A stretch of DNA of 64,000 bases from an uncultured Pirellulaceae bacterium. Its GTDB lineage: Bacteria > Planctomycetota > Planctomycetia > Pirellulales > Pirellulaceae. The position numbers and the translations under genes are program-made. Where the stretch lies: NCBI GenBank assembly GCA_937941455.1, contig CALDHM010000002.1, positions 62,001 to 126,000 of the forward strand, written 5' to 3'. A model generated the notes under the pieces. The model saw only the letters and a program-made list of their open reading frames with translations. It made no database searches and was not told the DNA's origin. Below, piece after piece: positions 18,224 through 23,020 of this stretch (within the stretch, counting starts at the first letter, position 1; each line of letters opens with the position of its first letter).

Positions 18224-19021
18224 TTATCGATTTTTTCGGGCCGCGGGAGGAATTCCACAGCGAACACGCTGATAACGAACTGCGCTGCGGGTGAGCCCTA
18301 TTTGCTCAGCGAGAACACCGTCTGGCACCTTGCCCAACTTGTCGAGCCATTTTTTAGACCATTTTTTTCGAGCGTGTTGCAGAGACTCTGAATAAGGGAT
18401 GCGATGCCGCGCACGATAGGCTGCGACTCGACCTTTCTTGATTCCCAATTCTTTAGCGATGATCTTATCGGGAACCTTGCCTAATCGGGCCTTGATCTCC
18501 GGGGTCCAGATGGAGCCAAAATGCTCGGCATTGAAGTTCGTGATGCCAAGCTCCAATCGTTTTGCGTAGACCAAGCGACGGCTAATACCGAGTAGCCTTG
18601 CGATTTCAGTGTCGGGACGAGTACCTAACAAGCGGATTTCTTCCGCCGACCATGCACGTCGAGGGCGTTTCGGTTGTATTGCCGCTATCCTTAACTTTCG
18701 GCGTTTCCAAGCCACCGTGGTTTGGCTGATTCCGATGCGGCGGGCGATTTCAGAGTCCGGTAATTTACCCAGCCATGAGATTTCTTTTCGAGTCCAGGTT
18801 CGTTGACTTTGTTTCAGATCGACGCGAAATGACGGAATACCTAGACGATGCCGCATCTGCGTGATTGCGCCCGGGGTCAAGCCAAGGATGCGGGCAACTT
18901 CCGCATCCGAGCGTGTGCCCAAAAGGGCCACTTGCGCCTCGTTCCAACGCAGGCGCTTGGGATTATTCGGCCGCCTGGCACTAAGAGCAGATTTCGTTCG
19001 TTTTGCTTTCTCCTTCGTCAT
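18224..19021 (-). CDS. Five-unit helix-turn-helix repeat protein, putative DNA-binding
   Basis: I do not recognise a named family for this 265-residue, very basic protein. It consists almost entirely of five degenerate units of 48-50 residues, each starting with a conserved Trp (W26, W76, W124, W172, W221). Each unit follows W-x6-LG...PD-x-x-IA-x-x-LGI-x5-V-x3-R, ending in a GI or RI pair. The second half of each unit reads like a helix-turn-helix with a recognition helix ending in Arg residues. I infer a tandem array of homeodomain-like DNA-binding modules. ATG at 19021 is chosen; a GTG at 19066 is in frame and neither has a good ribosome-binding site. It stands alone. Confidence 0.75.
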   Translation of the reverse strand: MTKEKAKRTKSALSARRPNNPKRLRWNEAQVALLGTRSDAEVARILGLTPGAITQMRHRLGIPSFRVDLKQSQRTWTRKEISWLGKLPDSEIARRIGISQTTVAWKRRKLRIAAIQPKRPRRAWSAEEIRLLGTRPDTEIARLLGISRRLVYAKRLELGITNFNAEHFGSIWTPEIKARLGKVPDKIIAKELGIKKGRVAAYRARHRIPYSESLQHARKKWSKKWLDKLGKVPDGVLAEQIGLTRSAVRYQRVRCGIPPAARKNR

Positions 19022-19293
19022 CGTTGTATCGTGAGCTTGAGAAATGTGCGAGCTTGATTTCCACACTGGAGCGAATTCGGCGTGCGGCAGAAGCGAATGC
19101 TCAGGCCCAATTTAAATGACGTTGAACGGTTGTCAAGCAATTGCTGTCCGCTGGTGCTCAGCCTGCGAAGTTCTGTGTTGAAACTGCGATGACAGTAACT
19201 CAAACAATCCGACATCACGAACGGCACCCGCGTGACATCGCTGATGTGGGCCGCTTTCCATCGAAATTCGATAGGTTGCGAGTTCCTTGATCA

Positions 19294-20010: not shown

Positions 20011-20517
20011 GATTCGGTTCGCGTGATGGTAATTGAGCAAATCGCAGCTATTAAAAACATCCGAGTTAGGCAATCCTGAGGCTGCCGTCCCAATATTGAC
20101 ATTTTTGAAAGCTGATGTTTGGCGGCGAACGTCCAAAATGTACAAACTGGGATGTTCAGGAAGGTGGCTTTAGGGGGAATAGGTTGACTTTGCTGACCGC
20201 CGAACAGGGCCGGCAAAAAAAGCCGTCGCGCAACCATTGAATTTTCGCCGCTCATTCGTCAAACTCGGGGAAAAAATGCTACGTAACGTTGGCCGGAGAA
20301 GGGATCCCAGACTATCATAAAAGATGTGGCGAGAAAAAACGTGCTGCGAAGCTCGGCAACTTGATTTTCGGCAGCGGCAGCGGTTTTGTAATCGCCACTT
20401 AGGTCGTAGAGGAACATGTTGGCGCGGCCAGTATGGCAAATCAGTTTCTACCTTTTCGGTCGTTCGATTTTGGTGATGAAGAGGGTTGAGTAGCGAATGT
20501 TGGTTAAAGGTGAACCA
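20011..20517. other. Divergent intergenic region
   Basis: This 507-base stretch separates the lipoate-ligase-like gene from the tyrosine/valine-rich repeat gene, which point away from each other. It should contain both promoters. I could not assign them, and no coding frame here is convincing. Confidence 0.4.
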
Positions 20518-21912
20518 ATGCATTGGAATTCGAAAATGACTGGTCTTGCCGTTTTCGGCTTCGTTCTGAGCTTGGCCTATGCTGGCATCGCTCAGGAATC
20601 GTACATCTTGCGCGATCGCGTGGTAACCGTTGAGCAACCCGTCAAACGAACGCGGCTGCAAGAGGAAACCATATACGAGACGATCACCATCGAAGAAGAG
20701 GTGCCGGTGATTGAGACGGAAACAAGGTATCGCAAGGTGCTGACGCAGCGCCCGGTGGTCAAAGAGAAAATCCTCGAAGAACGCTTTGAAGTCTGTAAGC
20801 CGGTGACAGAAACGTCGATGAAAACCGTCGAGATCGAGGAAACGGTGTATCAAGAGGTCACCGAAATGCAATCCAAGCCGACGTTGGTCCAAAAGCCCGT
20901 CCAGGAAACGAGATATCGCGACGAACAGGTCGTTGTGAAAAAGCCGGTCAGTTCGGTGCGATATGAGCCTCAACAAATGACGACCTATCGGCCCGAAATC
21001 CAGCAAGAGGTTACTTACACCGCGGCACAACTTGCCGCGATGTCACCCGCAACGACACACCTCGAGTGGATGCGCCGGGGCTATTATTTTGATCCCTCGC
21101 GGAACGCCTACATTTATCGGCGGCCGGGCTTCCATTGGGTAACCCAACCGCCGGCGGTCACCACCCAGCAAGTTTTGATCCCGCAAACGACGGCCAAAAC
21201 CGTGTTGGTTCCCGAAACCCAAACGACCTACAAACCGGTTGTCGTGGAGACCATGCAAGAAACGATCGAAACTCGCCGCGTTCCTTATGAAGTGACCACC
21301 ACCAAGACGGTGATGGAAAACGTCGAGGTCCCCGTCGTGGTGCGGCGACCGGTTGTCCAGCGGCGCCAAGAGCAAGTGCCGGAAACCAAGACGCGGTATG
21401 AAACCCAAGAGGTCGTAAGGCGGACGCCGATCCAGGAGACGACCTACGAATGCGTCGAGGTTGATGAGCCGTACCAGGTCCAAGTACAAAAATACGTGAA
21501 GCAGAAGCGCGTCGTTCAGGTGCCGAAGACGGTAATCCGCGAAGTCCCCGTGACCACGACGGAAAGCGTACGAAAGGTGGTCACCGAACGTATCCCCATC
21601 AAGAGCGCAAGCGAGTCTTCCACAGAATCATCGATTCCGCATTCTGCCAACCGTTCGGTCATCGACGGGACGACAGAGAATTCCGCAAGCCTCGGCGAAT
21701 TCAAACCGGCTGGGGAAATGAAAGTGCTCAAGGGCACTCGCCTCTTGGATCCCACTGAAGAGAAGAACGAGGCGGCAACCAGCACGACGACGGAACGGCC
21801 GAACAGCGTGCTGACGTTGGAAACCAAAGAATTGCGGCCGATTAGTGAACGCCCCAAACCTGTGGAGGCCGATATTCCCCCGGCAATCGAGCCGCCGAAG
21901 AATCCTAAATAG
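20518..21912 (+). CDS. Exported Val/Thr/Glu-rich repeat protein (YTV-like, planctomycete)
   Basis: The 464-residue protein has a signal peptide (about 1-24, ending AYAGIAQ). It then shows two long blocks of loosely repeated 10-15-residue units built from E-T-x-Y/R-x-x-V-x-x-x-P, such as QVPETKTRYETQEV and VEVDEPYQVQVQKYV. A central insert has GYYFDPSRNAYIYRRPGFHW, and the tail from about residue 370 is low complexity. The pattern resembles the YTV repeats of secreted planctomycete proteins, which are thought to be cell-wall associated; that link is by resemblance only. AAAGGTG six bases before the ATG at 20518 decides the start. The base pattern itself is repetitive, explaining long antisense open frames. 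Confidence 0.8.
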   Translation: MHWNSKMTGLAVFGFVLSLAYAGIAQESYILRDRVVTVEQPVKRTRLQEETIYETITIEEEVPVIETETRYRKVLTQRPVVKEKILEERFEVCKPVTETSMKTVEIEETVYQEVTEMQSKPTLVQKPVQETRYRDEQVVVKKPVSSVRYEPQQMTTYRPEIQQEVTYTAAQLAAMSPATTHLEWMRRGYYFDPSRNAYIYRRPGFHWVTQPPAVTTQQVLIPQTTAKTVLVPETQTTYKPVVVETMQETIETRRVPYEVTTTKTVMENVEVPVVVRRPVVQRRQEQVPETKTRYETQEVVRRTPIQETTYECVEVDEPYQVQVQKYVKQKRVVQVPKTVIREVPVTTTESVRKVVTERIPIKSASESSTESSIPHSANRSVIDGTTENSASLGEFKPAGEMKVLKGTRLLDPTEEKNEAATSTTTERPNSVLTLETKELRPISERPKPVEADIPPAIEPPKNPK

Positions 21913-22375
21913 ACTTTTTCCGCACACCGGTCGCCAACAGAGAGTCCCGGAGGTCTGGGTTGTGCCGTTGGCATCAGCATGGCCATAACCTTGGCGGACT
22001 CAGAGCCTATCCCAAAACCGGCGCTCGCTTACGCTTCGGGTTACGGGTGCTGCGGGTTTTGGAATAGGCTTTTAAGGTAGCCGGGTCGACTCGGCCGCGA
22101 TTCAATCCAACGGAGGGGAAAATCCGTGGTTTAACGCTGCGAACGGGGGGAATTGCCGCAAAATAAGTGCGACAAAAGGGCACTCCGTAGAGCCAAAAAA
22201 GTGGCGAATTACGCAGTCGAAGCCCCTGATCCGCCCCTGGGACTTGCCGTCAGGGCCGTTTTTCTTTGGTTGCCCCCCTTTCGTGAACCTTGGCGGAATC
22301 GTTTATATTTTAGGCTTGGTTTCGCGGGGGGCATCGTCGCTCCCGAAAAAGGTTTGTTTTGTAGGAGACCCAGCT
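21913..22375. other. Intergenic stretch with a family A repeat
   Basis: This 463-base gap between two plus-strand secreted-protein genes holds a complete family A repeat (22004-22070). Its right part should carry the promoter of the Cys-rich gene; a TATATT at 22304-22309 is a possible -10, without a clear -35. Confidence 0.5.
22004..22070. repeat. Dispersed intergenic repeat family A, complete copy
   Basis: This 67-base element is bounded by imperfect inverted ends, AGCCTATCCCAAAACC and GGTTTTGGAATAGGCT. Its core is CTCGCTTACGCTTCGGGTTA. A same-length copy in the same orientation lies at 38906-38972, and partial or tandem copies lie at 41511-41637 and 60583-60626. No coding capacity is present. 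It is a candidate REP-like or miniature element. Confidence 0.7.
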
Positions 22376-23020
22376 ATGCGTAAATTTTTCGGTTTTGCGA
22401 TTGTTGCACTGTTGGTATGCGGGCAAGCTTTTGCTCAGCAGCAGCCACAACCATCGCCGAGTGATGTCACCACCACCACTGCTCAAACGGTTGTTGAGCC
22501 CACCGCGGTAGGCATGCCCGCGCCTGTGATGGCTGCCCCCATGGCAGCCACCGCCGACTGCGGCTGCGGCAATGCAGTCGTCAGCAGCAACTGCGGATGT
22601 GCAAACACCGTGAGCACTTGTGCTCCCCAGACATGCAACACTTGTTGCGACAACGGCCGCCGCATCTTGGCCCGCCGCAACAACTGCTGCAACAACTCCT
22701 GTGGTTGCTCGGTACCGGTGACGACCTGTGCACCTCAAGTTTGCAACGACTGCTGCTACAACGACTGCTGCAACAACGGCCGTCGCGTCTTGGCCCGCCG
22801 CAACAACTGCTGCAATAATTCTTGCAACGTTGCGACGACTTCTTGCTGCCAACCAGTTGTCGTTGCTCCGCTCAGCACCGACTGCAACACTTGTGGCAGC
22901 GTTGTCAGCACCGGTTGTGCAACCCCGGCCACCGCTAGCGCTTGCTGCGAAGCTCGTCCGGCTCGTGTCCGTGCCATGCCTGTTCGCACCGGTGGTCTCC
23001 GCCTCCGTCGCGGCTGCTAA
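22376..23020 (+). CDS. Small exported Cys-rich repeat protein
   Basis: The 214-residue protein has a clear signal peptide (residues 1-21, ending GQAFAQ). The mature part holds about 29 cysteines. Two copies of a unit reading CAPQ-x-CN-x-CC ... NGRR(I/V)LARRNNCCNNSC are separated by about 50 residues, and the end is Arg-rich. AGGAG 8 bases before the ATG at 22376 decides the start, and a strong terminator follows 59 bases after the stop. I know no function; cysteines may cross-link or bind metal outside the cytoplasm. A second Cys-rich exported protein of different sequence lies at 39315-39983. Confidence 0.85.
   Translation: MRKFFGFAIVALLVCGQAFAQQQPQPSPSDVTTTTAQTVVEPTAVGMPAPVMAAPMAATADCGCGNAVVSSNCGCANTVSTCAPQTCNTCCDNGRRILARRNNCCNNSCGCSVPVTTCAPQVCNDCCYNDCCNNGRRVLARRNNCCNNSCNVATTSCCQPVVVAPLSTDCNTCGSVVSTGCATPATASACCEARPARVRAMPVRTGGLRLRRGC

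Follow-up and report, generated by a model that had tools for sequence, protein, structure and literature searches.

The gene examined here lies on the minus strand of a 64,000-nucleotide stretch (the window) of a contig from an uncultured Pirellulaceae bacterium, at positions 18224..19021. According to the open reading frame listing and its translation it starts with an ATG at 19021, stops at 18224 and encodes a protein of 265 amino acids, referred to below as the array protein. These coordinates agree with the original prediction, in which the strand was left unstated. An alternative GTG start at 19066 would extend the protein to 280 amino acids. A possible promoter (TTGACA-16-TAAATT, 19109..19136, minus strand), which is a consensus match only, was detected about 87 bases before the ATG. 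Since three promoter-type sites were found where 1.5 were expected, it is a weak candidate.

In the window the array gene is flanked by genes predicted to encode an SDR reductase and a lipoyl ligase, and no mobile genes were detected directly beside it. The gene looks monocistronic and chromosomal. Two other genes of the window, both on the plus strand, were recorded as well. One of them (20497-21912) is predicted to encode 471 amino acids with repeated charged stretches rich in V, T, E and R, a match to the YTV motif falling slightly short of the Pfam threshold (PF07639, 3.8e-4), and the other one (22244-23020) a Cys-rich protein of 258 amino acids and odd composition, in which CCNN/CGC motifs recur and a signal peptide is likely.

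The array protein has a pI of 11.6 and a net charge of about +42 at pH 7. The array fills the whole protein, the C-terminus lying seven residues past the last of five units, and the linkers between the units are short (about 10 residues). The N-terminal basic tail (residues 1-25, 18947..19021, minus strand) is predicted by AlphaFold2 to be disordered, with a pLDDT of about 40 over residues 1-20. The units, all on the minus strand, were delimited by means of the unit HMM and the AlphaFold2 model. Unit 1 (residues 26-63, 18833..18946) is predicted to form helices at residues 28-36, 39-46 and 50-60. The putative recognition helix of unit 2 (residues 76-113, 18683..18796) spans residues 100-109 and carries a TTVA.KR signature common to the position-matched units of orthologues. 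Unit 3 (residues 124-160, 18542..18652) has its predicted recognition helix at residues 148-158 with the signature RR.V.AKR, and unit 4 (residues 172-209, 18395..18508) at residues 196-205 with the signature V.AYR.RH. In unit 5 (residues 221-258, 18248..18361), which shows the lowest position conservation among the five, the corresponding helix is predicted at residues 245-255.

The repeat unit and its predicted fold

The five-unit repeat is real and far beyond chance. Its units share pairwise identities of about 27-51%, and their mean pairwise local score is 67.9 compared to a mean of 20.8 and a maximum of 25.6 in 500 shuffles. The tryptophan residues at 26, 76, 124, 172 and 221 had been proposed as anchors of five units of 48-50 residues, which proved to be correct: the measured start-to-start spacings are 50, 48, 48 and 49 residues, and three additional tryptophan residues (83, 105 and 225) are not anchors. 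The array protein shows the features used to define the family, namely at least two W/LG..D/IA..LG/V..R..LGI units spaced mostly 45-50 residues apart. The consensus derived from 325 family units reads W(T)....I..LGk.pD.e(L/I/V)A..LGi....V..(K/R)R..LGI, with the W conserved in 100% of the units where the column is aligned, the R in 99%, the D in 96%, the G in 92% and the I in 90%. A recent duplication of units was considered and rejected. The highest identity within any array is only 65%, found in a viral contig, and the best value in the array protein is 51%; the arrays are therefore old.

The HTH-like fold suggested by the original prediction was recovered in the model. AlphaFold2, which was supplied with the array protein aligned with 13 relatives from viral contigs, predicted three helices per unit with a mean pLDDT of 82 and values near 90 within the units, while a pTM of 0.39 indicates that the placement of the units relative to one another is not predicted. 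AlphaFold2, Pfam and the fold comparison point to the general HTH architecture, in which three helices form the core and the third one serves for recognition. The Pfam matches above the cut-off were all HTH-type and none of them was specific, the best being of the HTH_AsnC type (3.6e-11). The array protein reached no specific Pfam or NCBIfam model for stand-alone arrays, and the GIY-YIG catalytic domain was absent among the 25 Pfam families listed for it.

When 998 solved chains were re-aligned with VIA-align, the top rows were the DNA-binding domain of GcrA in its free form (5yiu, Z 5.2) and bound to methylated DNA (5yiv, Z 5.1), a Z of about 5 being middling by the tool's own note. The GcrA alignments have an rmsd of 1.8-2.6 over 39-43 residues, and the best match to this domain is that of unit 3. 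GcrA was also among the top matches of a profile of nine family members, with E values that are not significant alone (5yiu, 0.11; 7ye1, 0.93). The Z and E values are modest, and it is the agreement between structure and profile methods that counts. DUX4 and Myb were among the weak fold matches. With Foldseek, nothing in the PDB matched at E below 0.001, and 36 predicted viral proteins did so, including one named D5 and some named endonuclease. Neither a non-HTH fold nor a match to a non-DNA-binding repeat family, both of which had been named beforehand as evidence against the prediction, was found in these comparisons.

Relatives in genomes, phages and plasmids

The genome itself contains one array copy; a second match (E 0.09) has three internal stops and was not counted. 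Paralogs with other unit numbers, which the original prediction had proposed to look for, are missing from this genome, whereas relatives of that kind were found in other genomes. Four further genomes of the genus yielded no array gene, which is hence dispensable in this lineage. The array gene is present in 27 of 241 genomes of the family, representing 12 of 68 genera, and in 11 of 294 genomes sampled across the phylum. It was found, among others, in Rhodopirellula maiorica SM1, Planctomycetes bacterium CA13 and one Verrucomicrobia bin. Peptide-pattern scans with the single array protein revealed no relatives.

The relatives, with 2 to 10 units overall, are scattered over Planctomycetes, one Verrucomicrobia, phages or proviruses and Pseudomonas plasmids. 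The planctomycete open frames comprise 3 to 10 units, some being cut by contig ends, and include two clear sets, a five/six-unit and a ten-unit set, each of which has kept a spacing of its own. The arrays of viral contigs comprise 2 to 7 units. In Pseudomonas plasmids 3 to 4 units per open frame were detected in the stretch examined, and a single plasmid can have as many as 11 matching places. The entire plasmid pQBR103 has nine of them, and an otherwise unnamed neighbourhood of 16 kb (219679-236101) contains two or more separate open frames with arrays. Furthermore, a protein of the Vibrio phage helene 12B3 consists of a GIY-YIG nuclease (PF01541, 2.9e-10) followed by at least four array units (residues 98-276), which presumably serve as its DNA-targeting part.

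The array genes of relatives sit among ordinary chromosomal genes. No conserved partner gene was common to all genera examined, and neighbours are kept only genus-wide or partly; some genomes, for instance, have a divergent recQ-like helicase gene, which adjoins the array gene in L014, L016 and L018. A search for a shared upstream motif, as might be expected for autoregulation, revealed no word above the shuffled expectation, a weak result given the badly guessed start codons of some orthologues (L010, L020). No binding site or target gene was found. In the better-assembled genus relative G001 the flanking genes are located on different contigs, so that no empty site could be read. Possible insertion footprints around the array gene turned out to be chance-like repeats only. 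A role in defence was likewise discarded, as HTH similarity can explain both PADLOC matches, one to the mads_1 model with its 60 positions and a weak one to a homing endonuclease.

Recognition helices and the proposed role

The variable recognition helix on a kept scaffold that had been noticed within the array protein was confirmed and can be described more precisely: it differs between positions and is conserved per position among orthologues. In the five-unit orthologue group, comprising nine sequences below 80% identity, recognition helices share an identity of 0.519 at the same position versus 0.297 at different positions (ratio 1.75), compared to 0.511 versus 0.395 in helices 1-2 (ratio 1.29). 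The corresponding ratios in the ten-unit group are 1.79 in helix 3 and 1.49 in helices 1-2. Compared with label shuffles, column 24 carries the most position information in the five-unit group, followed by column 8, and columns 26 and 27 are also in the top four. Some of the highest values in the ten-unit group belong to columns 25-27, 29 and 33, although they are equalled there by columns 5 and 15, which lie outside the helix. In units 1-4 of the array protein, but not in unit 5, helix 3 most resembles its positional counterpart in orthologues. Common descent adds to this pattern, which supports a site-specific reading of DNA without proving it. A different reading helix kept at each position in relatives of 4 to 10 units suggests a ready-made reader of long DNA sites rather than a general DNA glue. 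Between close orthologues dN is well below dS (L003/L017, 0.038 versus 1.02), indicating purifying selection on the family genes.

Since the fold, the nuclease fusion in phage and the evolution of the family agree, it is very likely that the array protein binds DNA, and its high positive charge is in line with this. We favour, with a probability of about 0.6, a stand-alone chromosomal DNA-binding protein whose five GcrA-like HTH units recognise a long composite site and which acts as a site-specific regulator. The third helix of each unit would enter a major groove, and the units would jointly track the DNA over some two turns or more. The array protein, which has no effector or enzymatic domain of its own, would most likely act as a site-specific repressor, activator or anchoring protein; both the length of the site and this role are inferred. 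Bridging of sites or the reading of repetitive DNA, as proposed in the original prediction, would also be conceivable.

The main rival of a site-specific regulator is a nucleoid-associated protein, which would compact or bridge DNA by means of units that have little preference for its sequence. The strongly basic character of the protein would fit this role, as would the Lys/Ala-rich N-terminal tail of the orthologue L014, which comprises about 90 residues and is histone H1-like; extensions of similar length are present in L016 and L018. However, unspecific binding would not need position-specific conservation in the DNA-facing half of helix 3, and the family occurs in a minority of genomes, unlike typical core nucleoid proteins. 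We regard a nucleoid-type role as rather unlikely.

With still lower probability, the protein is a domesticated or stranded remnant of a mobile element, which once directed a phage regulator or a homing endonuclease to DNA and is now kept without its partner. The patchy distribution of the array genes, the occurrence of the units in phages or proviruses and Pseudomonas plasmids and their fusion to a GIY-YIG nuclease in a Vibrio phage are in line with such a descent, but the SDR reductase and lipoyl ligase genes in place of mobile neighbours, the ordinary chromosomal surroundings of the relatives' arrays and the purifying selection between species are not. This scenario concerns the origin more than the present function and is compatible with a site-specific regulator. 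Although RNA is bound by some helical repeats and occasionally by HTH folds, an RNA-binding or protein-binding helical repeat is highly improbable considering that the profile matches are DNA-binding HTH families, the closest structure is the DNA-bound GcrA domain and the units are fused to a nuclease in phage.

Comparison with known systems

Tandem-HTH DNA binders are already known, namely T5 D5 and phage endonucleases. Our literature searches on tandem or multiple HTH arrays, HTH repeats and planctomycete HTH regulators revealed nothing on the array family. Its stand-alone arrays, with as many as ten HTH units, are common to planctomycetes, phages or proviruses and plasmids. The interest of the array lies in its position-conserved recognition helices and in the use of one module by cells, phages and plasmids.

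The D5 protein of phage T5 comprises 255 amino acids and is annotated in its record as a DNA-binding protein needed for replication and late transcription. It is reported to contain an HTH and to be the trigger of retron-Kva2, its binding of msDNA being predicted by AlphaFold3 (PMC13405049). The array protein matches phrog_323 (D5-like transcriptional regulator) at 6e-23, but 13 of the 14 unrelated genomes used as controls contain matches to this profile as well. Due to this lack of specificity, membership in phrog_323 at face value was dropped, and the link to D5 is regarded as a likeness. T5 D5 itself matched the unit HMM at E 0.0026 in a single-sequence search and was not reported in another unit search. 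Annotations based on phrog_323 need careful reading in general; the profile also picks up a sigma factor-like protein of 579 amino acids with additional HTH segments, which is encoded on contig C69 of the genome that harbours the array gene.

The cell-cycle regulator GcrA of Caulobacter consists of a single DNA-binding domain of this type and a sigma70-binding part. Its domain resembles the array unit in the three-helix HTH, the tryptophan at the start and the ..IA..LG..T..AV..K..RLG pattern at the end, whereas the array protein consists of five units and nothing else, without a C-terminal sigma70-interacting part. The GIY-YIG homing endonucleases of Vibrio phages (phrog_7168) carry 4 to 5 array-type units behind the nuclease, a domain absent from the array protein, and this fusion offers a ready assay for the array family. 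The arrays of pQBR103 and other Pseudomonas plasmids are built from the same units, but are plasmid-borne, present in multiple copies and annotated only as hypothetical proteins.

In Myb R2R3, DUX4 and TALE or zinc-finger arrays, tandem small domains read consecutive subsites. The likeness of the array protein to them consists in the tandem small domains; no homology is claimed, and no unit-to-base code is known here. It is plausible, if less likely than not, that the family represents a natural modular reader, in which each of 4-10 HTH units would read its own subsite in order and the unit order would spell a long target. If unit order indeed sets the target, the family would add to the modular scaffolds for reading DNA and allow a direct test of the way in which HTH domains combine their specificities. 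Such a reader would resemble zinc-finger or TALE arrays, with a bacterial HTH as the module.
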